64,000 bases of DNA from Liolophura sinensis. Taxonomy: Eukaryota > Mollusca > Polyplacophora > Chitonida > Chitonidae. The translations under genes and the position numbers were made by a program. The stretch covers positions 95,907,805 to 95,971,804 of the forward strand of contig NC_088295.1 of assembly GCF_032854445.1 (NCBI RefSeq), given 5' to 3'. The notes under the pieces are model-generated. The model was not told where the DNA came from and made no database searches. It worked only from the letters and a program-made list of their open reading frames with translations. Positions 683 through 29,480 of this stretch are shown here, in pieces. Every line of letters starts with the position of its first letter. Position 1 is the stretch's first letter.

Positions 683-835
683 GGTTATCCCGTGCAGCAG
701 CTGATGGTAGATGCTGACAACCGAGTGGTAACCGTACAGAGGATTATCTCCCCTGATGAGCAAACTGTTACGCAGTCATCAATGTCTGTGAGGAGAGAAA
801 TGCCCGACGCTTCTCAAGCTCCCCTCATCGCAGTG
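683..835 (+). CDS. PRDM10: PRDM10 exon 1 in this window (internal coding exon, phase 0-0)
   Basis: The acceptor is ttcag at 678-682. The exon reads [20 protein letters not shown] onward, and upstream codons in the window do not supply a plausible start. The better donor is gtggtaagt (GT at 836). A weaker donor, tctgtgagg (GT at 788), would give a 105-nt exon in the same phase. The last 30 nt of the longer form ([10 protein letters not shown]) are themselves the first unit of the minisatellite that follows, so the choice decides whether repeat-derived residues are in the protein. Confidence 0.7.
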
Positions 836-3800
836 GTAAGTCTTTGCTTGAAGCTCCCACCAGCATAGTGGTAGGTCTTTGCTTGATGCTTCACCAGGTC
901 CCCTCTTTGCTGTGGTAGGTTTTTGCTTGACGCCTCACAATGTCCCCTCAGCATAGTGGTAGGTTTTTGCTTGACGCGTCACAAGCTTCCCTCAGCACAG
1001 TGGTAGGTCTTTGCTTGACGCTTTACAAGCTCCCCTCAGCATATTGGCAGGTCTTTGCTTTATGCTTCACAATGTCCCCTCAGCATAGTGGTAGGTTTTT
1101 GCTTGACACTTTACAAGCTCCCTTTAACATAGTGGTAGGCTTTTGCTGGACGTTTCACAATGTCACCTCAACATGGTGGTAGGTTTTTGCTTGACGCTTC
1201 ACAAGCTCCCCTCGGTACAGTAGCAAAATGTTTGCTTGACGCTTCACAAGCTCCCCTCAGAACAATGGTAGGTCTGCTTAATGCTTCACCGGCTCCCTCC
1301 AGCATAGTGGTAAGTCTTTGGTTACGTTTTACAAGGTCCCCTCAGTATAGTGGTAGGATTTTGCTTGACTCTTCACAAGCTCTTTCAGCACAGTGGTAGG
1401 TTTTTGCTTTATGCTTCACAATGTCCCCTCAGCATAGTGGTAGGTCTTTGCTTGATGCTTCACAAGCTCCTCTCAGCATAGTGGTAGGTTTTTGCTTCAT
1501 GTTTCACAAGCTCTTTTCAGCACAGTGGTAGGATTTTGCTTTATGCTTCATAATGTCCCCTCAGCATAGTGGTAGGTCTTTGCTTGATGCTTCACAAGCT
1601 CCCGTCAGCATAGTGGTAGGTCATTGCTTGACGCTTTACAAGTTCCCCTCAGCATAGTGACAGGTCTTTGCTTGACGCTTTACAAGCTCCCCTCAGCATA
1701 GTGACAGGTCTTTGCTTGACGCTTTACAAGCTCCCCTCAGCATATTGGCAGGTCTTTGCTTTATGCTTCACAAACTCCCCTCAACATAGTGGTAGGTTTT
1801 TGCTTGACGCTTCACAATCTCCCCTCGGTACAGTGGCAAAATGTTTGCTTGACGCTTCACAAGCTCCCCTCAGCACAGTGGTAGGTCTTTGCTTGATGCT
1901 TTACAAGCTCCCCTCAGCATAGTGACAGGTCTTTGCTTGACGCTTTACAAGCTCCCCTCAGCATAGTGACAGGTCTTTCCTTGACGCTTTACAAGCTCCC
2001 TTCAGCATATTGGCAGGTCTTTGCTTTATGCTTCACAAACTCCCCTCAGCATAGTGGTAGGTTTTTGCTTGACACTTCACAATCTCCCCTCAGTACAGTG
2101 GCAAAATGTTTGCTTGACGCTTCACAAGCTCCCCTCAGAACAATGGTAGGTCTGCTTAATGCTTCACCGGCTCCCTCCAGCATAGTGGTAAGTCTTTGGT
2201 TACGTTTTACAAGGTCCCCTCAGTACAGTGGTAGGTTTTTGCTTGACTCTTCGCAAGCTCTTTCAGCACAGTGGTAGGTTTTTGCTTTATGCTTCACAAT
2301 GTCCCCTCAGCATAGCTTCACAAGCTCCTCTCAGCATAGTGGTAGGTTTTTGCTTCACGTTTCACAAGCTCTTTTCAGCACAGTGGTAGGATTTTGCTTT
2401 ATGCTTCACAAGCTCCCGTCAGCATAGTGGTAGGTCTTTCCTTGATGCCTCACGAGGTCTCACAGTGGCAAGTCTTTGCTTGACACTTCACAACCTCTCC
2501 TCAGCATAGTGGTAAGTCTTTGAGGATGCTTTACGAGGTCCCCTCATTGCAGTGACAGGTCTTTGCTTGACGCTTCACAAGCTCCCCTCAGCACAGTGGT
2601 AGGTCTTTGCTTGACGCTTCACAAGCTCCCCTCAGCATAGTGACAGGTCTTTGCTTGACGCTTTACAAGCTCCCCTAAGCATAGTGACAGGTCTTTCCTT
2701 GACGCCTCAGGAGGTCCCCTCATCACAGTGGCAAGTCTTTGCTTAACGCTTCACAAGCTCCCCTCAGCACAGTGGTAGGTCTTTGCTTGACGCTTTACAA
2801 GCTCCCCTCAGCATAGTGACAGGTCTTTGCTTGACGCTTTACAAGCTCCCCTCAGCATAGTGACAGGTCTCTCTTTGACGCTTTACAAGCTCCCTTCAGC
2901 ATATTGGCAGGTCTTTGCTTTATGCTTCACAAACTCCCCTCAGCATGGTGGTAGGTTTTTGCTTGACACTTCACAATCTCCCCTCAGTACAGTGGCAAAA
3001 TGTTTGCTTGACGCTTCACAAGCTCCCCTCAGAACAATGGTAGGTCTGCTTAATGCTTCACAGGCTCCCTCCAGCACAGTGGTAAGTCTTTGCTTACGTT
3101 TTACAAGGTCCCCTCAGTACAGTGGTAGGTTTTTGCTTTATGCTTCACAAACTCCCATCAGTAAAGTGGTAGGTGTTTGCTTGACGCTTCACAAGCTCCC
3201 CTCAGAACAGTGGCAAGTGACACTTTACAAGGTCCGTCAGCACGGTGGTAGATCTACTTGATGCTTCACAAGCTCCCCTCATCACAGTGGTAGGATTTTG
3301 CTTCACAATTCGCAAGGTCTCCTCAACATAGTGGTAGGATTTTGCTTGACGCTTCGCAAGGTCTCCTCATCACAGTGGTAGGTTTTTGCTTGACGCTTCA
3401 CAAGGTTCCCTCAGCACCATGGTAAGTTTTTGCTTGACACTTCACAAGCTCCCCTCGGCACAGTTGTAGGTTTTTGCTTGATGCTTCACAATGTCCCCTC
3501 AGCACAGTGGTAAGTTTTTGCTTGAGGCTTTACAAGCTCCCTCAGCACAGTGGTAGGTTTTTGCTTGACGTTTGACAAGCTCCCCTCAGCGCATGTATTG
3601 GCCGACACTGTATTTTCTGACACTGTGTTTGCCAATGCACCGTGTTTGCTGACCGTGTATTGGCTGACCCTGCATTTGCTTATCCTGTATTGGTGACCCT
3701 GTACTTGCTAACAGTGTATTTACTGACGCTGTGTTGGCTCACAATGTATTGACTGACAATGTATTTGCTGAACCTGTATTTGCGATACTGTATTAGTGGA

Positions 3801-9800: not shown

Positions 9801-12800
9801 ATGGTGTGTTTGCATATGTCTGGTGTGGGTACATGGTGTGTGCGTGTATGTCTGGTGTGGGTACATGGTGTGTGTGTGTATGTCTGGTGTGTTTACGTGG
9901 TGTATGTGCATGTGTCAGGCGTGTCTACATAGGGTGTGCACATGCATGTATGTAATATGTGTGTACATGGTGTGTGTGTGGGCATATGTCAGGTGTGGGT
10001 ACATGGTTTGTGCATATATATCATGTGTGTGTACATGGTGTGTGCGCATATGCCAGGTGTCTGTACATGGTGTGTGGGCATGTGTCTGATGTGTGTATAT
10101 GGTGTGTGTGCATATGCCAGGTGTCTGTACATGGTGTGTGGGCATGTGTCAGGTGTGTGTACATGGTGTGTGGGCATGTGTCAGGTGTGTATATATGGTG
10201 TGTGGGCATGTGTCAGGTGTGTGTATATGGTGTGTGGGCATGTGTCAGGTGTGTGTACATGGTGTGTGGGCATGTGTCAGGTGTGTGTACATGGTGTGTG
10301 CGCATATGCCAGGTGTCTGTACATGGTGTGTGCGCATATGCCAGGTGTCTGTACATGGTGTGTGGGCATGTGTCAGGTGTGTGTATATGGTGTGTGGGCA
10401 TGTGTCAGGTGTCTGTACATGGTGTGTGGGCGTGTGTCAGGTGTGTGTACATGGTGTGTGGGCATGTGTCAGGTGTGTGTATATGGTGTGTGGGCGTGTG
10501 TCAGGTGTGTGTATATGGTGTGTGGGCATGTGTCAGGTGTATGTACATGGTGTGTGGGCATGTGTCAGGTGTGTGTATATGGTGTGTATGAATATGTTAG
10601 GTGTATGTACATGGTGTGTGGGCATGCGTCAGGTGTGTGTACATGGTGTGTGGGCATGTGTCAGGTGTGTGTACATGGTGTGTACAGTTATGTCAGGTGT
10701 GTGTACAGGTGCTGATGAATTGCTCATTATTGATTGACAGGTGAGAAAGTCTGACAGGATCGCCCACATGGAGGCCGATACATACCAGAGACGCCCTCAG
10801 AGATATATCCCCAAGCCATACAATCACGAGGAAATCTGTAAGCCGTAATCACCATTTACAAGTCATTTGGAAACTCACAGAATCAGTCATTCTTTGAATA
10901 TATAAAATTTGTCAAGCAATCAAAGGTACGAATGGGATATAAACATGTATTTACATTTCTTTTTATCAGTGCTTTGTTTTATTGCACTACAGTGTGTTAC
11001 CATGCTACTTTTGTTTTACCATACTATTGCAATTTACCATGCTGCTGTTTTACACTGATGCTGTTTAACTTTGCAACTGTGTTTTTCAGTATTTTTGTAC
11101 TTTACCATACCACTAATTGTTCAACCTTTTGGCATGTTTGTAAGGTGTTCAGGTATGGTCTGAGGGCTATATTCTGTGTCTAAATTGAAATTTGCTCATT
11201 CACACTCACAAAGGTTGAGGAATTCGGGTAGTTTGGTATTTTATTTATGTTTTTTGTATTACTCTACTTGCAGGGTGTGAGGAATGCATGAGGTCCTATG
11301 CTACAGAATGTGCCCTACACAAACTCATGCCCATCCCTGACAAACTGGTGCTGTCTAGAGCCTGGTCAAGTCTGCCCAATCTTCTACAGATATTCCGCTT
11401 TGGAGATACGCCTGGTAAGAAGAATGTATTCCATTCTAGAAATACAGAAACAAAGAGAAATTATTACATGAAAGATTCATAGCAGATTCTGTAAATATAT
11501 ATGCAGATAGCAAGTTACTTGTAAGACAAGAATGGTTGCATTAGGAATCTTCCAGAGGTATTTGCCAATCTGAGTAAGAGCTTGAATAGGTTTTGCATGT
11601 GGAGAAGCACTTTCTGAAGAGAAATATTCAACCTGTATTGTTTTTTCAGAGCTGGGTGTTTTTGCCAAGCGCCTTTTACCTAAACAGACTCAGTTTGGAC
11701 CATTCATAGCTGAGCTGTGTGAGAGCAGAGATATGGTGGCAAACACTCGCTTTCTTCTGCGGGTAGGTACAGTAATCATACAGTTGATGTGGAGTGAATC
11801 CAGGATGTCTCTGTAATACTATGGTTGGTTAGCGCACTGGCACAGTGTAATAACCCGGGAGCCTCTCACCAATGGAGTCGCTGTCAGTTCAAGTCCAGCT
11901 CATGCTGGCTTCCTATGCTGTCATATGTGGGAAGGTCTGCCAGCAACTTGCGGATGATCGTGGGTTTTTCCTTGGGCTCTGCCTGGTTTTCTCCCACCAT
12001 AATGCTGACCGCCGTCGTATAAGTGAAATATTCTTGAGTACACCATAAAGCACAAATCAAATAAATAAATAAATGCTGCGGATGTGGTTTGTCTGTAATA
12101 CTGCCGATGTGGTGTGTCTCTATTGTTGCGAATGTGGAGTATCTGTAATACTGCAAATGTGGTGTGTCTAATACTGCAGATGTGGTGTAAATCCAGGATG
12201 TGTCTGTAATACCACGGATGTGGTGTAAATCTAAGATGTGTGTGTAATACTGCAGATGTGGTGTAAGTCCAGGATGTGTCTGTAATACTGCAGATGTGGT
12301 GTAAATCCAGAATGTGTCTGTAATACCGTGGGTCTGGGTAAATAGGGTAAATCAAGCATGTGTCTGTAATACTGTGGATGTGGTGTAAATCCAGGATGTG
12401 TCTGTAATACTGCAGATGTGGCGTAAATCCAGGATGTGTCTGTAATACTGTGGATGTGGTGTAAATCCAGGATGTGTCTGTAATACTGCAGATGTGGTGT
12501 AAATCCAGCATGTGTCTGTAATACTGCAGATGTGGCGTAAATCCAGGATGTGTCTGTAATACAGCAGATGTGGTGTAAATCCAGCATGTGTCTGTAATAC
12601 TGTGGATGTGGTGTAAATCCAGGATGTGTCTGTAATACAGCAGATGTGGTGTAAATCCAGCATGTGTCTGTAATACTGTGGATGTGGTGTAAATCCAGGA
12701 TGTGTCTGTAATACAGCAGATGTGGTGTAAATCCAGGATGTGTCTGTAATACTGTGGATGTGGTGTAAATCCAGGATGTGTCTGTAATACAGCAGATGTG

Positions 12801-15800
12801 GTGTAAATCCAGCATGTGTCTGTAATACTGTGGATGTGGTGTAAATCCAGGATGTGTCTGTAATACAGCAGATGTGGTGTAAATCCAGCATGTGTCTGTA
12901 ATACTGTGGATGTGGTGTAAATCCAGGATGTGTCTTATACTGCAGATGTGGTGTTTGTAAACTATAATAATTTTCAGAGTTGATGTATTTTGTGTACTAT
13001 TTTATCACCAGCTGGAAAAGGAAGGAGGAGATTATGGTTACTTCAACACGAGGGATGAGAATCTGTGTAACTGGATGATGTTTGTACGTCCAGCTGAGAA
13101 CTACGCTGAGCAGAACCTGGTGGCCTATCAGTATGGATATGACATCTTCTTCACCGTGACAAAAGCCATTGAGCCCAAGCAGGAGCTAAAGGTGTCTCCA
13201 TTTTTTGTCTTCTTATTCCTGGCGTTTGTTTTCCTGTGCAACATTCACCCTACTTTTCCTGTGCAACATTCACCCTACTTTTCCTGTGCAACATTCACCC
13301 TACTTTTCCTGTGCAACATTCACCCTACTTTTCCTGTGCAACATTCACCCTACTTTTCTAGTCTTAACATGGCTTCTTGTTCAACACAACTAGTAAATTA
13401 TTGTTGTCTTGCAGCTGTGTGACTTAAATACTGCCAATATAGCAGTAAAACCTAATTATTGATTCATTTTATACCTGATCTCTTTTTGGGCAAGGATTTA
13501 AAACCTTATCCAACATAGCTCTGTCTTACATGTGTTTTGTCACACCCATTGGATGAGTGGCAAGTGTGTGAATTAGTGTGTGAATTAGTGTGTTGCTGTG
13601 TTTTCAGGTCTGGTATGCTGCACACTATGCTGAAAGGCTGGGTGTCAACACCCTGCCTATTCTACAGGAGGACATGGAAGGTAAGGCTGATAGATGATGG
13701 AATGAAGGGTGACAGGGCTTGTATGGGGTTAATACATGGCTTGTATATGGCTTTTACAGGGCTGGTACGGGGTTTATACATGGCTTAAACAGGGCTTATA
13801 CGGGGTTTATACATGGCTTGTATATGGCTTATACAGGGCTTGTACAGGGTTTATACATGGCTTATACAGGGCTTGTACAGGATTTATACATGGCGTATAC
13901 AGGGCTTGTACATTGTTTATACATGGCTTATACAGGGCTTGTACAGGGTTTATACATGGCGTATACAGGGCTTGTACATTGTTTATACAGGGCTTGTATG
14001 GGGTTTATACATGGCTTATACAGAGCTTGTATGGGGTTTATACATGGCTTATACAGTGCTTGTACGGGGTTTATACATGGTTTATACAGGGCTTGTACAG
14101 GCTTTATACATGGCATATACAGGGCTTGTACATTGTTTATACATGGCTTATACAGGGCTTGTACAGGGTTTATACATGGCATATACAGGGCTTGTACATT
14201 GTTTATACATGGCGTATACAGGGCTTGTATGGGGTTTATACATGTGTTATACATGGTTTATACAGGGCTTGTACAGGGTTTATACATGGCTTATACAGGG
14301 TTTATACATGGCATACACAGGGCTTGTACATTGTTTATACATGGCGTATACAGGGCTTGTATGGGGTTTATACATGTGTTATACATGGTTTATACAGGGC
14401 TTGTACGGGGTTTATTCATGGCATATACAGGGCTTGCATGGGGTTTATACATGGCTTATACAGGGCTTATACATGGCATATACAGGGTTTACAAAGAGCT
14501 TGTACGGGGTTTATACAGGGCTTATACAGGGCTTTTACATGGCTTCTACATGGCATAAACAGGGATTGTATGGGGTTTATACATGATTTATACATGGCTT
14601 TTACTTGTGTTATACATGGCTTATTCAGGGTTTGTACAGGGTTTATACAGGGCTTATACATGACTTTTACAGGGTTTATACATGGGTTTTACATGGCTTA
14701 TAAAGTGATCCATACATCCAAGGTTAGGTACCATGTGTATGTTATGGTTAATTTTATTGGAAGACCTTTACTCAAGTGGTCACATAATCAGCTGGATGAC
14801 CTGCATGATCTAGCTTGTTACAATTCACCATTGTTGTCAGTTGACCAGGCTACCATACACGTGTGTCCTCTGGTTTTAGGCTGTAATCATTCTACTCTGA
14901 TTTTAGCTGACCCGGATGCCAAGTGATGTGCTGGTTTTAGGCTGTAATCATTCTGCTCTGATTTCAGCCGACCTGCATGCCAAGTGCTGGTTTTAGGCTG
15001 TAATCATTCTACCCTGATTTTAGCTGACCCAGATGCCAAGTGATGTGCTGGTTTTAGGCTGTAATCATTCTAATCTGATTTTAGTTGACCCAGATGCCAA
15101 GTGATGTGCTGGTTTTACGTTGTAATCATTCTACTCTGATTTTAGCTGACCCGGATGCCAAGTGGTGTGCTGGTTTTAGGCTGTAATCATTCTACTCTGA
15201 TTTTAGCTGACCTGGATGCCAAGTGATGTGCTGGTTTTAGGCTGTAATCATTCTACTCTGATTTTAGCTGACCCGGGTGCCAAGTGATGTGCTGGTTTTA
15301 GGCTGTAATCATTCTGCTCTGATTTCAGCCGACCTGCATGCCAAGTGCTGGTTTTAGGCTGTAATCATTCTACTCTGATTTTAGCTGACCCAGATGCCAA
15401 GTGATGTGCTGGTTTTAGGCTGTAATCATTCTAATCTGATTTTAGTTGACCCAGATGCCAAGTGATATGCTGGTTTTACGTAGTAATCATTCTACTCTGA
15501 TTTTAGTTGACCCGGATGCCGAGTGGTGTGCTGGTTTTAGGCTGTAATCATTCTACTCTGATTTTAGCAGACCCGTATGCCAAGTGGTGTGCTGGTTTTA
15601 GGCTGTAATCATTCTACTCTGGTTTTAGCTGACCTGGATGCCAAGTGATGTGCTGGTTTTAGGCTGTAATCATTCTACTCTGATTTTAAACTGACCTGGA
15701 TGCCAAGTGATATGCTGGTTTTAGGCTGTAATCATTCTACTCTGATTTTAGCTGACCCAGATGCGAAGTGGCCATGTTACGAGTGCCCTAAGAAGTTCCG

Positions 15801-18800
15801 TACGTCTGCTCAGCTACAAAACCATCTGGCGGAGCATGAGGAGGGTGGAACCGAGGGTGACCCGGATGAAGAGTATGACAGTAACGGTGTCAAGAAACCC
15901 AAACGTAAAGCCACACAACTCACAGCCTCTGGGGTGCCCAAGAAAAGGGGACGACCTGCCAAAACACTGAAGGTTTGTGCTACGTGCCATACAAAACACT
16001 GAAGGTTTGTGCTACGTGTCATACAAAACACTGGAGGTTTGTGCTGCGTGTTGTACAAAACACTGAAGGTTTGTGCTATGTGTCATACAAAACACTGAAG
16101 GTTTGTGCTATGTGTCATACAAAACACTGAAGGCTTGTGCTACGTGCCATACAAAACACTGGAGGTTTGTGCTAGTGTCATACAAAACACTGAAGGTTTG
16201 TGCTAGTGTCATACAAAACACTGAAGGATTGTGCTACGTGTCATACAAAACACTGAAGGTTTGTGCTACACGTCGTACAGAACACTGAAGGTTTGTTCTA
16301 CGTGTCATACAAAACACTGGAGGTTTGTGCTAGTGTCATACAAAACACTGAAGGTTTGTTCCAAGTGTCATACAAAACCCCTAAAGTTTGTGCTATGTGT
16401 CATACAAAACACTGAAGGTTTGTGCTACGTGTCATACAAAACACTGAAGGTTTGAGCTATGTGTCATACAAAACACTGAAGGTTTGTGCTATGTGTCGTA
16501 CAAAACACTGAAGGTTAGTGCTACCTGTCTTAAAAAAACACTGGAGGTTTGTGCTACGTGTCATACAAAACACTGAATGTTTGTGCTAGTGTAGTACAAA
16601 ACATTGACGGTTTGTGCTACGTGTCATACAAAACACTGAAGGTTTGTGCTACGTGTCATACAAAACACTGAAGGTTTGTGTTAGTGTAGTACAAAACATT
16701 GAAGGTTTGTGCTACGTGTCATACAAAACACTGGAGGTTTGTGCTATGTGTCATACAAAGCACTGAAGGTTTGTTCTAGTGTAGTACAAAACATTGAAGG
16801 TTTGTTCTAGTGTCGTACAAAACACTGGAGGTTTGTGCTATGTGTCATACAAAACACTGCAGGATTGTGTTCTGTGTCATACAAAACACTGAAGGATTGT
16901 GCTACGTGTCATACAAAACACTGAAGGTTTGTGCTCCATGTCATACAAAACACTGAAGGTTTGTGCTACATGTCATACAGAACACTGAAGGTTTGTTCTA
17001 CGTGTCATACAAAACACTGGAGGTTTGTGCTAGTGTCATACAAAACACTGAAGGTTTGTGCTATGTGTCGTACAAAACTCTGAAGGTTTGTGCTACGTTT
17101 CATACAAAACACTGAAGGTTTGTGCTTCGTGCTATACAAAACACTGAAGGTTTGTGCTAGGTGTCGTACCAAACACTGAAGGTTTGTGCTGCATGTCATA
17201 CAAAGTACTGAAGGTTTGTGCTCTGTGTCATACAAAACACTGAAGGTTTGTGCTGCATGTCATACAAAGTACTGAAGGTTTGTGCTCTGTGTCATACAAA
17301 ACACTGAAGGTTTGTGCTCCATGTCATACAAAAACACTGAAGGTTTGTGCTCCATGTCATACAAAACACTGAAGGTTTGTGCTATGTGTCATACAAAACA
17401 CTGAAGGATTGTGCTATGTGTCATACAAAACACTGAAGGTTAGTGCTACATGTCGTACAAAACACTGAAGGTTAGTGCTACATGTCGTACAAAACACTGA
17501 AGGTTAGTGCTACATGTCGTACAAAACACTGAAGGTTAGTGCTACATGTCATACAAAACACTGAAGGTTTGTGCTACATGTCGTACAAAACACTGAAGGT
17601 TTGTGCTACGTGTCGTACAAAACACTGAAGGTTTGTGCTACGTGTCATACAAAAACACTGAAGGATTGTGCTACGTGTCATACAAAAACACTGAAGGTTT
17701 GTGCTCTGTGTCATACAAAAACACTGAAGGTTTGTGTTATGTGTCATACAAAACACTGAAGGTTTGTGCTGCGTGTCATACAAAATACTGAAGGTTAGTG
17801 CTACATGTCGTACAAAATACTGAAGGTTTGTGCTACATGTCGTACAAAACACTGAAGGTTTGTGCTCCATGTCATACAAAACACTGAAGATTAGTGCTAC
17901 ATGTCGTACAAAACACTGAAGGTTTGTGCTCCATGTCATACAAAACACTGAAGGTTAGTGCTACATGTCGTACAAAACACTGAAGGTTTGTGCTACGTGT
18001 CATACAAAACACTGAAGGTTTGTGCTACATGTCGTACAAAACACTGAAGGTTAGTGCTACATGTCGTACAAAACACTGAAGGTTTGTGCTACGTGTTATA
18101 CAAAACACTGAAGGTTAGTGCTACGTGTCATACAAAACACTGGAGGTTTGTGCTACGTGTCATACAAAACACTGAAGGTTTGTGCTCTGTGTCATACAAA
18201 AACACTGAAGGCTTGTGCTCCATGTCATACAAAAACACTGAAGGTTTGTGCTACGTGTTATACAAAACACTGAAGGTTTGTGCTATGTGTCATACACAAC
18301 ACTGAAGGTTTGTGCTACGTGTCATACAAAACACTGAAGGTTTGTGCTACGTGTCATACAAAACACTGAAGGTTTGTGCTACGTGTCATACAGAACACTG
18401 AAGGTTTGTGCTCCATGTCATACAAAACACTGAAGGTTTGTTCTACGTGTCATACAAAATACTGAAGGTTTGTGCTCCATGTCGTACAAAATACTGAAGG
18501 TTTGTGCTACATGTCGTACAAAACACTGAAGGTTAGTGCTACATGTCGTACAAAACACTGAAGGTTTGTGCTACATGTCGTACAAAACACTGAAGGTCTG
18601 TGCTACATGTCGTACAAAACACTGAAGGTTAGTGCTACATGTCGTACAAAACACTGAAGGTTTGTGCTACGTGTCATACAAAAACACTGAAGGTTTGTGC
18701 TACGTGTCATACAAAACACTGAAGGTTTGTGCTACATGCCATACAAAACACTGAAGGTTAGTGCTACATGTCATACAAAAACACTGAAGGTTTGTGCTAC

Positions 18801-21389
18801 GTGTTATACAAAACACTGGAGGTTAGTGCTACGTGTTATACAAAACACTGGAGGTTTGTGCTACGTGTTATACAAAAACACTGAAGGTTTGTGCTACGTG
18901 TTATACAAACAGGATTACCTTGTAAGATTATAAATTGTATGCAGTGCTCTTTGACTGCCACACTTTTTACTGAGAAAACATTCGAAAGCGTTAGTGTTTT
19001 AATTATAAATATCTGAGGTTGAAACTTAACTTTCGTCACTAAGGATGCTGCAGCACTGGGTATATTGAAATAAGCCAATTCATTTGAGGGTTTCTTCTGG
19101 GACTGTTTTCACTTTGCTTATATGATACATTGTGTTTATCCTGCAGGAAAACGGAGAAACTAAAGTTTTCCAGAGCTGGAAGAAGAGGACAACCAATCTG
19201 TATCTGACAAAGTGAGCTCACACTTTGATTAACTGAAAGATGTCTTGTACTAATATTTTGAAGTCTGGTAAATAATTTCATCTTATTTCAAACTTTCATT
19301 TCTTCTAATGAAAGCGTAACTTCTCCCTGTGCTCTGTGGATGTAAGTTTAAGGATCTTGTGACACTTGATTTCAGAACACTGAAGAAATACCAGAAGAGG
19401 CATGATCCTGAGATGATCAAGAGAACTCTTAAGTCTCTCTACAAACGGAAGGGCAAGGAGACAGGTGGGAACGAGTGGGTGTGTACTCACTGTGACCTCA
19501 CATTTGACAACTCCAGCCTGCTCAACCTGCACACGCTGACCCACGCAGCCGAGGATGTGGGGCTGGAAGGCACAGAAAAGACTGTTTCCATATCCACTGG
19601 TGAAGATGGAGAGCTGATCATTACGGGCAGTGTGCTGGAGGGTGCAGGGGATGCCAGCAGCGAGGGTAACCTGGTCAGCCTACAGAGTTCTCCCCCTGCC
19701 TGCCCAGTCTGCCACAAGGAGTTCACCTCCAAGCGAGATCTCATTGAGCATGCGAGCGACCACGCCATGACTCGGAAAAGCTGCGTGCGAGCAAACAAGT
19801 GCTCACTGTGTTGGAAGGGCTTCAGCACCCAGGAGAGGCTGCAGAAGCACATGCTATGTCACGGAGATGAAGAGACCAAACCTCTTCAGTGTACTGTCTG
19901 CTTCAAGCGCTTCATGAACAACTCCGCGCTATCCTGTCACATGAAGACCCACAGCAACAGGAAGTTCCACGAGTGCCCCATCTGCCGCATGGGCTTTGAC
20001 CAATCCCTGGTGCTCAAGGACCATGTGAAGCAGCATGAGACCAATGGGGTGTATATATGTCCTATTTGCCAGCGGCAGTTTGACGACTTCGTCCTCATCA
20101 AAAAGCACATTCGCGGATTCCACTCGGAAAAACGCTACCCTTGTCCTGACTGTGACAAAATATTCCCGCGCTCAGACAAGCTGAAGCTGCACATGCTGAA
20201 GCACTCCGCCCACAGGGACTTCATGTGCGAGACGTGCGGGCGGCAGTTCAAACGCAAAGACAAGCTCAAGGAACACATGAAGAGGATGCACTCTATAGAG
20301 CGGGAACAGAGAATCCGCGAGAAGTCAGAGCGCAGACCCAGCCTCAAGCGCTTCATTCCCAAGGTGTCGCCCACAGACTATCACCGCTTCATCTACAAAT
20401 GTCACACTTGTCTACTGGGGTTCAAGAGGAGAGGTATGCTGGTGAACCACCTGGCTAAGCGTCATCCAGATATCAAACCTGACCAAGTGCCTGAGCTCAA
20501 TCTGCCCATCCTAAAGACACAGAGAGACTACTACTGCCAGTACTGCGACAAGGTCTACAAGTCTAGCTCCAAGAGGAAGGCCCACATCATCAAGAACCAC
20601 CCAGGGGCAGATCTGCCTCTGAGCAGCAGGACAAAGACGCTGATCCCAGACATCCCAGGCCTGCCCAACCCCACATACTCCCAGACTGTGGGCAGCATCA
20701 CCACCATGCCCCACTCCTGTGACTTCTGCCACAAGCAGTATGCCAGCAAGGCCAAATTGATGCAGCATCAGAGGAAGAAGCACTCCGAGCTTGTGCCCGC
20801 TGTGTCGGATCGCAGGCTTAAGGATGAGATGGAGGGGGAGGAGGAGTGCCTGACGGAAGAGCCAAAGACTCATGAGATCCATGTATATGAGACAGTGCAG
20901 GCCGCAGCCTTAGCCCAGGCTTCCACAGAGATCCCCACAGCCGACCTGCTCACCCAGGCCATGAGTGAGCTCACCCAGAGCCTGAGTGAGTACCGTAACC
21001 CCACCGGAGAGTATCGCCTCACTCCGGGCACCCACACTACCCTGGTGCAGGCCGCCACTCACATCCCCATCCAACACTCCACAATTGAGCTGAGCCACTT
21101 GGGACAGGCTCTTGGGCAGACCCAGTACACCACTCAAGGCCACCTTGCCACAGTCCAGGCTGCCCCCTCCCCCGGACAGCCCCAGGCCCCTGCTGCAGTA
21201 CCTGTCACTATACAGACCATACCTGTGTCCGAAGTGGTGAATGGTCAGACAATGTCTGTCAGTGGACAGACAGTGGCGGTCAGCGGAGGTACCACCATTC
21301 AGGTGCCTGTGTCCACTCTGGGCACCATTCAGGGACAGACCTACTTACAGACTCAACGCACCTGGGCAAACTACCCAAATTACCGCTAA
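683..21389 (+). CDS. PRDM10: PRDM10 orthologue: PR-domain C2H2 zinc-finger transcription factor, 13 exons, 5' partial
   Basis: Nuclear DNA-binding regulator of the PRDM family. My exon model is 683-835, 3988-4263, 5817-5895, 6453-6584, 8768-9162, 10741-10837, 11274-11414, 11650-11762, 13012-13191, 13608-13680, 15752-15972, 19147-19211 and 19376-21389. These join in phase to 1312 codons plus TAA. In partial-protein numbering the PR domain lies at about 378-546 ([36 protein letters not shown]), one C2H2 finger at 555-575, eleven fingers at about 678-1110, and a Gln/Thr-rich tail follows, containing [16 protein letters not shown]. The PR core, the [16 protein letters not shown] finger, the QYCDKVYKS finger and the tail motif match what I remember of vertebrate PRDM10, so the assignment is firm. 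No initiator Met is in the window, because exon 1 follows a splice acceptor. The human protein, from memory, has about ten fingers; this one has twelve. The tail is shorter than in human and ends where a tandem array begins. Splice choices at exons 1, 4 and 12 are the least certain. Confidence 0.92.
836..3590. repeat. Minisatellite, about 44-bp unit, seeded at the PRDM10 exon 1 donor
   Basis: Roughly 60 units built of cacaagctcccctcagca, tagtggtaggtctttgct and tgacgctt. The last 30 nt of exon 1 plus its donor (ctcaagctcccctcatcg, then cagtggtaagtctttgct) are the first unit. Each unit therefore carries a donor-like gtggtaggt. Confidence 0.95.
3591..3985. repeat. Degenerate short repeat (about 20 bp, tgaccctgtatttgc type)
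   Basis: Imperfect runs of tgaccctgtatttgctga and tgtattggctgac fill the space between the 44-bp array and the exon 2 acceptor. Units are much more diverged than in the neighbouring array, suggesting an older array. Confidence 0.8.
3988..4263 (+). CDS. PRDM10: PRDM10 exon 2 (Ser/Thr/Met-rich, phase 0-0)
   Basis: The acceptor is cttataccatacag and the donor is cccaaggtaggc. It encodes 92 residues beginning [20 protein letters not shown] and ending METVPPK. The sequence is low in order-promoting residues and rich in Ser, Thr and His, as expected for the unstructured N-terminal half of PRDM10. Codon usage is more GC-rich than the flanking repeats. No domain is recognised. Confidence 0.75.
4264..5816 (+). 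other. PRDM10 intron 2: unique sequence, no gene recognised
   Basis: About 1.5 kb with no clear tandem array, unusual for this gene. It contains an A-run near 4590 and an open frame at 5353-5473 ending in a good donor (aaagcggtaagt at 5474). I could not place that frame as a PRDM10 exon and recognise no domain. Confidence 0.5.
5817..5895 (+). CDS. PRDM10: PRDM10 exon 3 (acidic/Ser-rich, phase 0-1)
   Basis: The acceptor is gacattttcag and the donor is cacagaggtgggt. In the phase-0 frame it reads [20 protein letters not shown] and then DFPPHR, leaving one base. The charged, Ser/Gly-rich composition and good splice sites support it. The other open frame here (starting MTVAAGSL) does not keep phase. 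Confidence 0.65.
5996..6205. repeat. Tandem repeat, 51-bp unit, 4 copies
   Basis: Four nearly identical units containing cagtttgcccatggaact and attacatactctttattc. The length is a multiple of three, so it is open in two frames and mimics a repeat protein. It is intronic. Confidence 0.95.
6285..6390. repeat. Short tandem repeat, about 39-bp unit, 3 copies, just upstream of PRDM10 exon 4
   Basis: Units contain gttgttattgtagtgcct, cactcgggacatttacca and gat. It ends about 60 bp before the chosen acceptor of exon 4. Confidence 0.85.
6453..6584 (+). CDS. PRDM10: PRDM10 exon 4 (Ser/Asp-rich, phase 1-1); 5' splice boundary uncertain
   Basis: It encodes [20 protein letters not shown], then [20 protein letters not shown] and SSV. 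The donor is tctgtgggtcagt (GT at 6585), whose phase fits exon 5. The only nearby AG that keeps phase with exon 3 is atcag at 6448-6452, which has a poor pyrimidine tract. A better-looking acceptor, ttcactcgacag (AG ends 6424), breaks the frame. The coding content is convincing; the left edge is not. Confidence 0.6.
6697..7085. repeat. Minisatellite, 31-bp unit, in PRDM10 intron 4
   Basis: About 12 units of tttacaattgcttgtaga plus tcccacaactgac, with a higher-order alternation of gttgatcctgcaactggc and tagatcccacaactgac types. Confidence 0.95.
7395..8680. repeat. Minisatellite, 24/48-bp unit, in PRDM10 intron 4 before exon 5
   Basis: Units of acatgacactggtcatca and gtccatccatgacactga, with the second half drifting into ggccacacatgac and ggccttgggccaccc variants. 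The core ggtcatcag resembles the start of exon 5 (ccag then gtcatcatcag), so the array may also derive from that junction. Confidence 0.93.
8768..9162 (+). CDS. PRDM10: PRDM10 exon 5 (Gln/Ser/His-rich, phase 1-0)
   Basis: The acceptor is ttctctgtccag and the donor is agaagggtgagc. The 395-nt exon encodes [20 protein letters not shown], then a Gln/Ser/Asn-rich stretch ([19 protein letters not shown]), and ends acidic ([16 protein letters not shown]). It is a disordered, activation-type region before the PR domain. The upstream minisatellite has units carrying ggtcatcag, which resembles the first bases of this exon. Confidence 0.85.
9423..9544. mobile_element. Short palindromic MITE-like element in PRDM10 intron 5
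   Basis: Ends are inverted repeats: ggggccactttcacaaag at the left and ctttgtgaaagagcccc at the right, about 122 bp apart. Terminal sequence of the gggcc...tttcacaaag type is common in small foldback elements of marine invertebrates, from memory. No unambiguous target-site duplication is visible. Confidence 0.6.
9580..10725. repeat. UG-rich minisatellite, 30-bp unit, before PRDM10 exon 6
   Basis: About 38 units of gtgtgtacatggtgtgtg plus ggcatgtgtcag, strongly G/T-biased on the transcribed-sense strand. The 30-bp unit leaves all three + frames largely open, giving long Cys/Val-rich spurious ORFs. The array ends 16 bp before the exon 6 acceptor. Confidence 0.97.
10741..10837 (+). CDS. PRDM10: PRDM10 exon 6 (basic linker before the PR domain, phase 0-1)
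   Basis: The acceptor is attgattgacag and the donor is gaaatctgtaagc. It encodes [20 protein letters not shown] then [12 protein letters not shown], a basic linker leading into WCEEC of the next exon. It lies directly downstream of a 1.1-kb UG-rich tandem array whose units end in tgtcag. Confidence 0.8.
10838..11273 (+). other. PRDM10 intron 6: unique T-rich intron
   Basis: 436 bp, pyrimidine-rich (several ttttgttttaccat-like stretches), with no array and no mobile element that I can see. Confidence 0.5.
11274..11414 (+). CDS. PRDM10: PRDM10 exon 7 (start of PR region, Cys-rich knuckle, phase 1-1)
   Basis: The acceptor is tctacttgcag and the donor is cgcctggtaaga. It encodes [20 protein letters not shown] then [22 protein letters not shown]10 relatives have a short Cys/His cluster followed by a LTRARASLP-like stretch just before the PR fold, and this matches in order and spacing. 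Confidence 0.9.
11650..11762 (+). CDS. PRDM10: PRDM10 exon 8 (PR domain, N-terminal strands, phase 1-0)
   Basis: The acceptor is gttttttcag and the donor is ctgcgggtaggt. It encodes [20 protein letters not shown] then [18 protein letters not shown]. The GVFAKR and TQFGP motifs are the first PR/SET strands of PRDM10. The following intron holds a SINE and a 38-bp array. Confidence 0.92.
11820..12074 (+). mobile_element. tRNA-derived SINE (family B) in PRDM10 intron 8
   Basis: Sense orientation, slightly 5'-truncated. It starts near ggttggttagcgcactgg (A-box-like), has B-box-like agttcaagtccagctc, the central ccaccataatgctgaccg and cgtcgtataagtgaaata, and ends in an (aaat)n tail. It splits the first unit of the 38-bp array: ctgtaatact lies before it and gcggatgtgg directly after. 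Confidence 0.9.
12075..12955. repeat. Minisatellite, 38-bp unit, in PRDM10 intron 8
   Basis: About 23 units of gtgtaaatccaggatgtg, tctgtaatactgcagatg and tg, with sub-types (ctgtgg/cagcag/ctgcag; aggatg/agcatg) alternating in a higher-order pattern. One related unit lies upstream of the SINE at about 11785-11819. Confidence 0.96.
13012..13191 (+). CDS. PRDM10: PRDM10 exon 9 (PR domain core, phase 0-0)
   Basis: The acceptor is tttatcaccag and the donor is ctaaaggtgtct. It encodes the most conserved PR block: [26 protein letters not shown] and IEPKQELK. It corresponds to the SET-like core, but, as in other PRDM proteins, the canonical SET NHxCxPN motif is replaced by NWMMFVRPA. Confidence 0.96.
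13230..13358. repeat. Tandem repeat, 25-bp unit, 5 copies, in PRDM10 intron 9
   Basis: Near-identical units of cctgtgcaacattcaccc plus tactttt. Very low divergence suggests recent expansion. Confidence 0.96.
13608..13680 (+). CDS. PRDM10: PRDM10 exon 10 (end of PR domain, phase 0-1)
   Basis: The acceptor is gctgtgttttcag and the donor is atggaaggtaagg. It encodes [20 protein letters not shown] then EDME. VWYA is the last conserved PR strand. A 33-bp tandem array begins about 40 nt after the donor. Confidence 0.93.
13720..14705. repeat. Minisatellite, 33-bp unit of three 11-bp sub-repeats, in PRDM10 intron 10
   Basis: Units cttatacaggg, cttgtacaggg and tttatacatgg alternate. A length divisible by three without stops yields a 396-codon open frame (13736-14926) that is not a gene. 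Retaining the intron from exon 10 reaches TGA within a few codons. Confidence 0.96.
14870..15751. repeat. Minisatellite, 61-bp unit carrying the PRDM10 exon 11 acceptor
   Basis: About 14 units of ctgacccggatgccaagt, gatgtgctggttttaggc and tgtaatcattctactctg attttag. Each contains a full copy of the branch/pyrimidine/AG region and the first ~18 nt of exon 11. Most decoys read ADPDAK then TGA, where the true exon has TGG. Confidence 0.97.
15752..15972 (+). CDS. PRDM10: PRDM10 exon 11 (first C2H2 finger and AT-hook-like basic linker)
   Basis: The acceptor is ctctgattttag and the donor is ctgaaggtttgt. It encodes [20 protein letters not shown] and continues to HLAEH, giving Cys555, Cys558, His571 and His575 of a C2H2 finger. 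A basic [14 protein letters not shown] stretch with an RGRP AT-hook core follows. The 61-bp array upstream carries copies of the acceptor plus the exon start, and the 32-bp array downstream carries copies of the exon end plus the donor. The true donor (aaggtttgt) is weaker by consensus than many decoys (aaggttagt). Confidence 0.93.
15973..18910. repeat. Minisatellite, 32-bp unit carrying the PRDM10 exon 11 donor
   Basis: About 90 units of aaaacactgaaggtttgt plus gctacgtgtcatac. The last 12 nt of exon 11 (aaaacactgaag) and the donor gtttgt form the start of the unit. Variants include aaggttagt, a stronger donor match, in many copies between about 16500 and 18840. Confidence 0.97.
19147..19211 (+). 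CDS. PRDM10: PRDM10 exon 12 (linker, phase 0-2); reading frame uncertain
   Basis: The acceptor is tttatcctgcag and the donor is gacaaagtgagc. Phase-consistent translation is [20 protein letters not shown] then TK, joining [11 protein letters not shown] of exon 13. An overlapping frame reads [13 protein letters not shown], which looks more like an acidic linker. It would need the internal acceptor gttttccag (AG ends 19174), a different frame and another junction to exon 13. I kept the version that joins cleanly. Confidence 0.55.
19376..21389 (+). CDS. PRDM10: PRDM10 exon 13: eleven C2H2 fingers and C-terminal tail, stop TAA
   Basis: The acceptor is cttgatttcag, and the 2014-nt exon is open to TAA at 21387-21389. 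Eleven C2H2 fingers begin, in order, at VCTHC, ACPVC, KCSLC, QCTVC, ECPIC, ICPIC, PCPDC, MCETC, KCHTC, YCQYC and SCDFC. All have a plausible His pair, several of the longer-spaced kind (HIRGFH, HMKRMH, HLAKRH, HIIKNH, HQRKKH). Fingers 3-11 line up with the vertebrate PRDM10 array as I recall it; fingers 1-2 look additional. The tail is Gln/Thr/Pro-rich with several serial TVSGQT-like phrases, typical of an activation region. The whole finger array in one exon is notable, since the vertebrate gene splits it among several. The final codons (WANYPNYR) lie in the first unit of a 63-bp tandem repeat. Confidence 0.97.
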
Positions 21390-21885
21390 GTGTGGCTAAC
21401 TGTGACGTGTGTGTGACAATGCAGACAAACTACCCAAATCACCACTACATGTGGCTAACTGTGACGTGTGTGTGACAATGCACTTAGACAAACTACCCAG
21501 ATCACCACTACATGTGGCGAACTGTGACGTGTGTGTGACAATGCACTTAGACAAACTACCCAAATCACCACTACATGTGGCTAACTGTGATGTATGTGTG
21601 ACAATGAACTTAGACAAACTACCCAAATCACCTCTAGGTGTGGTGAACTGTGACGTGTGTGTGACAATGCACTTAGACAAACTACCCAAATCACCACTAC
21701 ATGTGGCTAACTGTGACGTTTGTGTGACAGAATGCGCTTAGACAAACTACCCAAATCACCACTACGTGGCTAACTGTGACGTGTGTGTGACAGAATGCGC
21801 TTAGACAAACTACCCAAATCACCACTAGATGTGGCTAACTGTGATATGTGTGTGACCCATGAAAATAACCTGGACAAACTCCCAA
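21355..21885. repeat. Tandem repeat, about 63-bp unit, overlapping the PRDM10 stop codon
   Basis: About 8 units of acaaactacccaaatcac, cactacatgtggctaact and gtgacgtgtgtgtgacaa. The first unit contains the last PRDM10 codons and TAA. A shorter decayed derivative (ggacaaactccccaaact, gtgac) continues to about 22110. Confidence 0.94.
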
Positions 21886-24120: not shown

Positions 24121-27100
24121 TTCAGTTAAACCATAGCACCTCGCCGGGGGACAGAATAAGGTCGTAACGTATGAGTGTAACTAAACCATAGCAACGCGTT
24201 GGGGGACAGTGTGAGGTCCTAACGTAAGGCTGTAGCTAAACCATAGCACCTCATATATCGGGACATTGTGAGGTCCTAAAATAAGGCTGTAGCTAAACCA
24301 CAGCACCTCGTCGGGGGACAGTGTGAGGTCCTAATGAGTGAGTGCTTGGGGTTTAACGTCGTACTCAGCAATTTTTCAGTCATATGACCACGAAGGAATC
24401 ATTAGGATGCATGTACGTGTAATGTGCCTCCTTGTTGCAGGACGGATTTCCACCGCTCTTTTATTCTTTTATTTAGTACTGCTTCACTGAGACGACTTAC
24501 CGAAGGCAAGTAAGCCGCCCCGCCCGAGCCATTATACTGATACGGGTCAACCAGTCGTTGCTCTATCCCCTTCATGCTGAACGCCAAGCGAGGAAGTTAC
24601 AACTTCCTCTTTTAAAGTCTTAGGTGTGACTCGATCAAGGATTGATCCTGGATCTACCGGTGACGAAGCGGACGCTCTACCAACTGTGCTATCCGGGCCG
24701 GTGAGGTCCTAATGTAAGGATGTAGCTAAACCACACCACCTCGTCGGGGGACAGTATGAGGTCCTAACCAATGACTGTAGCTAAACCACAGCACCTCGTC
24801 GGGGGACAGTATGAGGTCCTAACCTATGACTGTAGTTAAACAATAGCACCTCGTCAGGGGACAGTATGAGGTCCTCACCAATGACTAGTTAAACCATAGC
24901 ACCTCGTCAGGGGACAGTGTGAGGTCCTAACCTATGACTGTAGCTAAACCATAGCAACTCGTCGGGGGACAGTGTGAGGTCCTAACGTAAGGCTGTAGCT
25001 AAACCATAGCACCTCGTCAGGGGACAGTGTGAGGTCCTAACCAATGACTATAGCTAAACCATAGCAACTCGCCGGGGGACAGTATGAGGTCCTAACCAAT
25101 GACTGTAGCTAAACCATAGCACCTCATCAGGGAACAGTGTGAGGTCCTAAGCTATGACTGTAGCTAAACCATAGCAACTCGTCAGGGGACAGTGTGAGGT
25201 CCTAACCTATGACTGTAGCTAAACCATAGCAACTCGTCGGGGGGACAGTGTGAGGTCCTAACGTAAGGCTGTAGCTAAACCATAGCACCTCGTCAGGGGA
25301 CAGTGTGAGGTCCTAACCAATGACTATAGCTAAACCATAGCAACTCGCCGGGGGACAGTATGAGGTCCTAACCAATGACTGTAGCTAAACCATAGCACCT
25401 CATCAGGGGACAGTGTGAGGTCCTAAGCTATGACTGTAGCTAAACCATAGCAACTCGTCAGGGGACAGTGTGAGGTCCTAACGTATGACTGTAGCTAAAC
25501 CATAGCAACTGGTCGGGGGACAGTGCGAGGTCCTAACCAATGACTGTAGCTAAACCATAGCAACTCGCCGGGGGACAGTATGAGGTCCTAACCAATGACT
25601 GTAGCTAAACCATAGCACCTCATCAGGGGACAGTGTGAGGTCCTAAGCTATGACTGTAGCTAAACCATAGCAACTCGTCAGGGGAGAGTGTGAGGTCCTA
25701 ACCTATGACTGTAGCTAAACCATAGCAACTCGTCGGGGACAGTGTGAGGTCCTAACCAATGACTGTAGCTAAACCATAGCAACTCGTCGGGGGACAGTAT
25801 GAGGTCCTAACCAATGACTGTAGCTAAACCATAGCAACTCGTCGGGGGACAGTGTGAGGTCCTAACGTAAGGCTGTAGCTAAACCATAGCAACTCGTCGG
25901 GGGACAGTATGAGGTCCTAACGTAAGGCTGCAGCTAAACCATAGCAACTCGTCGGGGGACAGTATGAGGTCCTAACATAAGGCTGTAGCTAAACCATAGC
26001 AACTCGTCGGGGGACAGTGTGAGGTCCTAAGCTATGACTGTAGCTAAACCATAGCAACTCGTCAGGGGACAGTGTGAGGTCCTAATGTAAGGATGTAGCT
26101 AAACCACACCACCTCGTCAGGGGACAGTGTGAGGTCCTAACCTATGACTGTAGCTAAACCATAGCAGCTCGTCGGGGGACAATATGAGGTCCTAACGTAA
26201 GGCTGTAGTAAACCATAGCAACTCGTCGGGGGACAGTGCGAGGTCCTAACGTAAGGCTGTAGCTAAACTATAGCAACTCGTCGGGGGACAGTATGAGGTC
26301 CTAACGTAAGGCTGTAGCTAAACCATAGCAACTCATCGGGGGACAGTATGAGGTCCTAACGTAAGGCTGTAGCTAAACCATAGCAGCTCGTCGGGGGACA
26401 GCATGAGGTCCTAAGCTATGACTGTAGCTAAACCATAGCAACTCGTCAGGGGACAGTGTGAGGTCCTAACCTATGACTGTAGCTAAACCATAGCAACTCG
26501 TCGGGGACAGTGTGAGGTCCTAACCAATGACTGTAGCTAAACCATAGCAACTCGTCGGGGGACAGTATGAGGTCCTAACCAATGACTGTAGCTAAACCAT
26601 AGCAACTCGTCGGGGGACAGTGTGAGGTCCTAACGTAAGGCTGTAGCTAAACCATAGCAACTCGTCGGGGGACAGTATGAGGTCCTAACGTAAGGCTGCA
26701 GCTAAACCATAGCAACTCGTCGGGGGACAGTATGAGGTCCTAACATAAGGCTGTAGCTAAACCATAGCAACTCGTCGGGGGACAGTGTGAGGTCCTAACC
26801 TATGACTGTAGCTAAACCATAGCAACTCGTCAGGGGACAGTGTGAGGTCCTAATGTAAGGATGTAGCTAAACCACACCACCTCGTCAGGGGACAGTGTGA
26901 GGTCCTAACCTATGACTGTAGCTAAACCATAGCAGCTCGTCGGGGGACAATATGAGGTCCTAACGTAAGGCTGTAGTAAACCATAGCAACTCGTCGGGGG
27001 ACAGTGCGAGGTCCTAACGTAAGGCTGTAGCTAAACTATAGCAACTCGTCGGGGGACAGTATGAGGTCCTAACGTAAGGCTGTAGCTAAACCATAGCAAC

Positions 27101-29480
27101 TCATCGGGGGACAGTATGAGGTCCTAACGTAAGGCTGTAGCTAAACCATAGCAGCTCGTCGGGGGACAGCATGAGGTCCTAAGCTATGACTGTAGCTAAG
27201 CCATAGCAACTCGTCGGGGGACAGTGTGAGGTCCTAATGTAAGGATGTAGCTAAACCATAGCACCTCGTCAGGGGACAGTGTGAGGTCCTAACCTATGAC
27301 TGTAGCTAAACCATAGCAACTCGTCGGGGGACAGTATGAGGTCCTAACGTAAGGCTGTAGCTAAACCATAGCAACTCGTCGGGGGACAGTATGAGGTCCT
27401 AACGTAAGATTGTAGCTAAACCATAGCAACTCGTCGGGGGACAGCGTGAGGTCCTAAGCTATGACTATAGCTAAACCATAGCAACTCGTCGGGGAACAGT
27501 GTGAGGTCCTAATGTAAGGATGTAGCTAAACCATAGCACCTCGTCAGGGGACAGTGTGAGGTCCTAACCTATGACTATAGCTAAATCACACCACCTCGTC
27601 GGGGGACAGTATGAGGTCCTAACCTATGACTGTAGCTAAACCATAGCAACTCGTCGGGGAACAGTGTGAGGTCCTAATGTAAGGATGTAGCTAAACAATA
27701 GCACCTCGTCAGGGGACAGTGTGAGGTCCTAACCTATGACTGTAGCTAAACCATAGCAACTCGTCGGGGGCCAGTGTGAGGTCCTAACGTAAGGCTGTAG
27801 CTAAACCATAGCAACTCGTCAGGGGACAGTATGAGGTCCTAACCAATGACTGTAGCTAAACCATAGCACCTCGTCAGGGGACAGTGTGAGGTCCTAACCT
27901 ATGACTGTAGCTAAACCATAGCAACTCGTCGAGGGACAGCGTGAGGTCCTAACGTAAGGCTGTAGCTAAACCATAGCACCTCGTCAGGGGACAGTGTGAA
28001 GTCCAAACCTATGACTGTAGCTAAACCATAGCAACTCGTTGGAGGACAGTGTGAGGCCCTAACCTATGACTGTAGCTAAACCACAGGACCTTGTCGGGTG
28101 GATAGTGTGAGGTGCTAATGTAAGGATGTAGCTAAACCACACAACCTCATCGGGGGACAGTGTGAGGTGCTAATGTAAGGATGTAGCTAAACCACACGAC
28201 CTTGTCGGGGGACAGTGTGAGGTCCTAACGTAAGGCTGTAGCTAAACCATAGCAACTCGTCGGGGAACAGTGTGAGGTCCTAATGTAAGGATGTAGCTAA
28301 ACAATAGCACCTTGTCAGGGGACAGTGTGAGGTCCTAACCTATGACTGTAGCTAAACCATAGCAACTCGTCGGGGGCCAGTGTGAGGTCCTAACGTAAGG
28401 CTGTAGCTAAACCATAGCAACTCGTCAGGGGACAGTATGAGGTCCTAACCAATGACTGTAGCTAAACCATAGCAACTCGTCGGGGGACAGTGTGAGGTCC
28501 TAACCTATGACTGTAGCTAAACCATAGCACCTCGTCAGGGGACAGTGTGAGGTCCTAACCAATGACTGTAGCTAAACCATAGCACATCGTCAGGGGACAG
28601 TGTGAGGTCCTAACCTATGACTGTAGCTAAACCATAGTAACTCGTCGAGGGACAGCGTGAGGTCCTAACGTAAGGCTGTAGCTAAACCATAGCACCTCGT
28701 CAGGGGACAGTGTGAAGTCCAAACCTATGACTGTAGCTAAACCATAGCAACTCGTTGGGGGACAGTGTGAGGTCCTAACCTATGACTGTAGCTAAACCAC
28801 AGGACCTTGTCAGGTGGATAGTGTTAGGTGCTAATGTAAGGATGTAGCTAATCCACAGCAACTCGTCGGGGGACAGTGTGAGGTGCTAATCTGAGCATGT
28901 AGCTAAACCACACGACCTTGTCGGGGGACAGTGTGAGGTCCTAATGTAGGGATGTAGCTAAACCATAACACCTCGTCAGGGGACAGTATGAGGTCCTAAC
29001 CAATGACTGTAGCTAAACCATAGCACCTCGTCGGGGGACAACGTGAGGTCCTAACGTAAAAATGTAGCTAAACCATAGCACCTCGTCGGGGGACAGTGTG
29101 AGGTCCTAATGTAAGGATGTAGCTAAACCACACGGCCTTGTCGGGGGACAGTGTGAGCTCCTAATGTAAGGATGTAGCTAAACCATAACACCTCGTCAGG
29201 GGACAGTATGAGGTCCTAACCTATGACTGTAGCTAAACCACAGCACCTCGTCGGGGGATATTGTGAGGTCCTAATGTAAAAATGTAGCTAAACCACAGGA
29301 CCTTGTCGGGGGACAGTGTGAGGTCCTAACGTAAGGCTGTAGCTAAACCATTGCTCCTCGTCAGGGTACAGTGTGAGGTCCTAACCTATGACTGTAGCTA
29401 AACCATAGCAACTCGTCGGGGGACAGCGTGAGGTCCTAACGTAAGGCTGTAGCTAAACCATAGCACCTCGTCAGGCTGGG
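24120..29480. repeat. Large minisatellite, 55-bp unit, about 90 copies, intergenic
   Basis: Units of tgtagctaaaccatagca, actcgtcgggggacagtg and tgaggtcctaacctatga c. Sub-types differ at aacctatgac / aacgtaaggc / aaccaatgac / aatgtaagga and at gcaactcg / gcacctcg. Blocks of about 0.77 kb (around 25740-26500 and 26510-27230) and about 0.6 kb recur nearly verbatim, so the array has higher-order structure. Confidence 0.97.
24337..24700 (-). mobile_element. tRNA-derived SINE (family A), full length, inserted in the 55-bp array
   Basis: Read on the minus strand it has a tRNA-like head (ggcccggatagcacagtt, ggtagagcg; B-box-like ggatcaatcc), a middle region, and a 3' end of atatgactgaaaaattgc, tgagtacgacgttaaacc, ccaagcactcactcatt. 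It is flanked by the 14-bp direct repeat gtgaggtcctaatg (24323-24336 and 24701-24714). It sits inside one unit of the array and has not been co-amplified. Confidence 0.93.

Follow-up and report, generated by a model that had tools for sequence, protein, structure and literature searches.

A PRDM10 exon flanked on both sides by minisatellites made of its own splice junctions in the chiton Liolophura sinensis

The stretch of DNA analysed here (the window, 64,000 bp, C1:95907805-95971804) lies on scaffold 1 of a genome of 632 contigs and 609,464,459 bases, and ends 0.46 Mb short of the end of that scaffold (96,433,062 bp). The assembly was published under the name Liolophura japonica, and the species has since been corrected to L. 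sinensis (PMC12441733). Among the 7998 candidates scored, those with the most shared words, the two closest COX1 matches are chitons, Acanthochitona at 94% and Callochiton at 93%. By its relatives and domains, the gene that runs through the left part of the window is identified as PRDM10, in keeping with a preliminary description of the locus: the best relatives of residues 280-780 were brachiopod and mollusc PRDM10 proteins (identities of 49-55% for the three top rows of the search), the best 30 rows were all PRDM10, PRDM10-like, hypothetical or unnamed products, or nameless, the PR domain had its best PDB match in 3ihx (PRDM10), and Pfam recognised both a PR domain and zf-C2H2, the features by which we assign a protein to PRDM10. 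We assembled by hand a model of twelve coding exons on the forward strand, beginning at exon 683-835, and the eleven from position 3988 onward were translated, with an approximate start coordinate for the exon near 6425. Judged by eye, the translation of exon 683-835 is similar to the N-terminal region of the Haliotis orthologue (P0002), and as this exon comprises 51 whole codons, its phase fits that of the exon at 3988.

Flanked on both sides by arrays of its own splice junctions is a 221-nt exon of this gene (Table 1). Its limits were drawn from the phase shared with both neighbouring exons and from an alignment to 15 PRDM10 orthologues, both of which bear out the real exon of this length that had been proposed; the residues flanking it are conserved among the 15, and its 5' end is two residues shorter than in most of them. 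Upstream, the 61-bp unit consists of the 3' end of the intron, the AG, and the first 19 exonic bases, 17 of which are identical to the exon, and downstream, the 32-bp unit consists of the last 13 exonic bases, all identical to the exon, followed by the donor GT and the start of the intron. Neither unit's match to the exon was equalled by any of 2000 mononucleotide-shuffled units, and junction-centred 40-mers matched the adjacent intron with a score of 73 at the acceptor, where the best of 60 shuffles reached 25, and of 61 at the donor, where the best of 60 reached 20. The proposal that two arrays with different units arose from the two edges of one exon was thus upheld by Tandem Repeats Finder and by the comparison of the units with shuffled sequence. 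By Tandem Repeats Finder, the upstream array starts about 880 bp earlier than the interval given for the whole structure in the preliminary description, 15752 to 18910. A similar array at C7:21037402 (71% identity) was considered as the source of the 32-bp unit and rejected, being a different array with no recognised adjoining exon.

Table 1 Features of PRDM10 and its junction arrays in the window (a slash marks the splice site).
Feature	Position	Strand	Details
Upstream coding exon	683..835	+	ends GCAGTG/GTAAGT
44-bp array	832..3590	+	~62 units by length; built from the last bases of exon 683-835 and its donor
Preceding exon	13608..13680	+	ends GAA/G, phase 1
Upstream array	14870..15770	+	61 bp x 14.9, 89% matches (Tandem Repeats Finder)
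Segment that use of the last unit's second AG would add to the exon	15725..15751	+	27 nt; ctggttttag/GCTGT; in frame, adds 9 codons
Exon between the two arrays	15752..15972	+	221 nt; completes the phase-1 codon, ends in phase 0
Downstream array	15960..18909	+	32 bp x 92.1, 90% matches (Tandem Repeats Finder)
Next exon	19147..19211	+	begins in phase 0; encodes a conserved FQSWKK-like segment
63-bp array	21367..21856	+	63 bp x 7.8; derived from where the coding sequence ends and the 3' UTR begins

Many of the copies retain the dinucleotides that splicing requires. Of 14 upstream copies of the authentic acceptor type, 13 have an intact AG, with the AG destroyed in the copy nearest the exon, and a second AG (ggttttag) is present in 13 upstream units, the last unit among them. 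Downstream, we counted 80 decoy donors of the form [AG]AG/GT, or 81 with the authentic one: 57 read AAGGTTTGT (including the authentic donor, so that 56 decoys share its 9-mer), 12 read AAGGTTAGT, nine read GAGGTTTGT, and three other forms occur once each; GTTAGT is found in 13 decoys. Earlier figures of about 14 acceptors and about 90 donors are therefore about right as counts of units and somewhat high as counts of intact sites. Across 90 downstream units the T of the GT is kept in 83 and the G in 89 (the latter being part of the anchor by which the units were cut), and 7 of the 32 unit columns are more variable than this T, which is somewhat less well kept than most columns; the decoys are thus not strongly depleted. 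The lost AG in the nearest acceptor copy and the lower retention of the T could reflect either chance or weak selection against decoys.

Between 14700 and 15774, an AG yields an open exon in phase at just three positions, 15725, 15752 and 15761. Use of 15761 would shorten the exon by 9 nt; most of the 15 orthologues are only two residues longer than the form starting at 15752 at the place where 15725 would add its segment. The remaining decoys bring a stop codon or a frame shift, and all 80 decoy donors sit past the first in-frame TGA after the authentic donor, such that any later donor retains that TGA. With what we take to be the sequence of the U1 5' end, the predicted pairing energy is −5.5 kcal/mol for the authentic donor, −5.6 kcal/mol for GAGGTTTGT, and −6.2 and −6.3 kcal/mol for the two GTTAGT forms, so that 13 decoys are predicted to pair clearly better than the authentic site. 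Because these decoys pair better and 56 others share the authentic 9-mer, strength over nine bases cannot choose the real donor. The real splice pair is thus probably selected by position rather than strength, and the sequence supports the earlier suggestion that splicing would have to choose the inner pair among its copies.

Tandem repeats that run across exon-intron boundaries were reportedly named 'mirages' in amphioxus Adh3. The chiton structure has the same features, namely minisatellite-like arrays, units that span an intron-exon boundary of a protein-coding exon, and many copies with AG or GT kept, and on these structural features, read from the genomic sequence of one haplotype, we class the arrays as an extreme double mirage, a known kind of structure extended from cephalochordates to a mollusc. 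From the observed arrays, their derivation from the exon edges, the reading frames and the stop codons, we consider it very probable that a double mirage grew from both edges of the exon, that the inner pair is the one used, and that slips are removed. Tandem duplication of short segments straddling the acceptor and the donor, through slippage or unequal exchange, would have founded the two minisatellites, both of which would have grown outwards, through the introns on either side. As no copy falls within the exon, its original 221 nt are still framed by the innermost acceptor and donor, which is most likely why the arrays are tolerated. Exon definition would most likely pick this inner pair, the one with the shortest span, regardless of how strong the outer copies are, and mis-spliced RNA from outer sites would be removed because splicing there brings a frame shift or a stop. 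Beside the inner pair, acceptor 15725 (with nine additional residues), acceptor 15761 or decoys may also be used. Intron gain by tandem genomic duplication, of which a study reportedly dealt with the duplication of segments carrying splice signals, resembles this scheme in the kind of segment duplicated, and differs from it in that introns already flank the chiton exon.

Two other readings would change what the copies mean. The outer copies might be put to use in alternative or regulated splicing, as poison extensions or as many U1 sites that prevent early polyadenylation, a reading that would suit the retention of AG or GT in most copies and the absence of strong GT loss; we regard it as unlikely, given that every alternative found, save 15725 and 15761, ends in a stop or a frame shift, and that the amphioxus cases appear to splice regularly (PMC3087553). 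We give no more credit to the reading in which the boundaries of the exon are wrongly assigned and the arrays only resemble splice junctions. Although 15725 is in frame too, and the exon falls short of most orthologues at its 5' end, the phases of both neighbouring exons fit the boundaries as drawn, the flanking residues are conserved, and between 15972 and the first in-frame stop a GT in the right phase occurs only at 15973 (by eye).

As a double mirage, the chiton exon can be set beside several known systems. Amphioxus globin mirages occur at both boundary types, with units of 10-160 bp and many copies that carry AG or GT, and they vary in length between haplotypes, BflGb6 having haplotypes with six and three units; to judge by Adh3 data and by RT-PCR of the globins, splicing seems to be regular all the same (PMC3087553). 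The chiton case shares with those of Adh3, BflGb6 and BflGb9 the tandem units that span a splice junction and keep many AG or GT, but it occurs in a mollusc, affects both edges of one exon, and comprises about 15 plus 92 units. In lancelet PGBD5, 60- and 108-bp repeats likewise overlap exon edges of one gene, but at two exons and in 2-7 copies (PMC3902484). Genes in human segmental duplications also carry minisatellites (mean unit 30 bp), some at exon-intron boundaries, but with about four copies on average, in recent paralogues and with the formation of novel introns (PMC2812944). A search of the openly licensed literature, with one Conus paper left aside, found no report of mirages in molluscs. 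With 13 acceptor copies and 80 donor copies around one natural exon, and some of these donors probably stronger than the real one, the locus lends itself to testing exon definition, and sequenced RNA from five tissues of this Liolophura species has been published (PMC11068029).

Junction arrays are not unique to this exon, and occur also at exon 683-835 and at myosin exons. The 44-bp array after exon 683-835 scored 60 against a shuffle maximum of 26, with 27 of 30 exonic bases identical, and the 63-bp array at the end of the coding sequence scored 60 against 29, with 29 of 35 aligned coding bases identical. Of the 22 PRDM10 splice junctions, three (scores 60, 73 and 61) matched the neighbouring intron much better than any of 60 shuffles did, and 18 of the remaining 19 stayed within the shuffle range in this comparison. 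The nineteenth, the donor at 4263, was just above it (22 versus 20) and lies beside a two-copy repeat of 38 bp (4268-4345), which begins 5 bp past the donor of exon 3988-4263 and may be a junction array at an early stage. The window also holds two very long minisatellites (24701-29472, 55 bp x 87; 59144-63984, 52 bp x 93) that lie outside the modelled PRDM10 exons. Copies of a dispersed element that look alike by eye, perhaps a SINE, stand at 11826-12070 and about 31780-32000.

Elsewhere in the genome, we sampled 44 myosin exons in 30 fetched loci (of 81 matches listed) and tested both edges of each, with a simple score to predict the edges and a base-by-base reading of the junction-array cases. 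Five of the 88 edges carried junction arrays (donors at loci L026, L029, L033 and L041, and an acceptor at L035), against 1.2-1.4 expected from the array density per block, an expectation to which one 267-bp repeat contributes much (P 0.009-0.015). This supersedes an earlier expectation of 0.49-0.59, which had omitted overlapping and two-copy arrays and had treated array density as uniform across loci. At L035 we discarded two more flags, one a third-ranked GT inside the 4-copy array after exon C2:5379301 and the other a GT that follows exon C2:5378501 and has 2 copies. Arrays also lie past the matched exon region at L039 (by 10 bp) and L025 (by 32 bp), and these hold no junction copies. In 36 kinase and ion-channel loci, where arrays are rare and exon edges were guessed, no junction array was found. 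At L026 the authentic donor (GTGAGT) is predicted to be stronger than its decoys (GTCAGT, GTCACT).

How the arrays came to lie on junctions is a question of origin, and the simplest answer, random seeding in a minisatellite-rich gene with the junction overlap as a by-product, is compatible with the double mirage. Tandem repeats with a period of at least 10 cover 64% of the window, as compared with 6.8% of 60 loci from the myosin and kinase searches, and when the 15 listed PRDM10 arrays were seeded at random in simulation, 0.81-1.14 junction hits were obtained, depending on tolerance, with a probability of 0.04-0.10 for at least three. Genome-wide, the donor octamer CAGGTRAG formed close triples in 2861 of 59,903 occurrences (4.8%), a rate close to the highest of three controls, its reverse and two other permuted octamers (1.8%, 2.7% and 4.4%); the comparison does not set donors apart. 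We lean slightly towards seeding without junction preference on these grounds, even though in the same simulation one exon was struck at both edges with a probability of only 0.019 and the myosin count stands well above its expectation. Random seeding nearly suffices for PRDM10, and the myosin sample exceeds it. The alternative, that junctions, mostly donors, are preferred minisatellite seeds owing to some process linked with transcription or splicing, such as breaks or R-loops at the ends of exons, draws on this myosin excess (P about 0.01) and on the eight junction arrays of the two samples combined (three in PRDM10, five in myosin genes), six of which are at donors; against it stand the small sample, analysed after the pattern had been noticed, the lack of junction arrays among the kinase and ion-channel loci, and the octamer comparison, in which CAGGTRAG does not stand apart from its controls. 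These data suggest a preference for junctions as array seeds, yet as a full account we hold it to be rather doubtful. Tentatively, splice junctions, and donors above all, might be preferred birthplaces of minisatellites in this chiton, in which case a fair number of exons across the genome, though a minority, would have dozens of copies of their own splice sites close by, as strong as the real ones or stronger, and their splicing would be decided by position alone and not by sequence.

The recurrence of such arrays in PRDM10 and in myosin genes suggests a genome in which junction arrays can be counted. In the same assembly, contig C99 holds seven COX1 matches at a spacing of about 15.5 kb, one of them shorter, and the mitochondrial genome is apparently present there as a head-to-tail concatemer.
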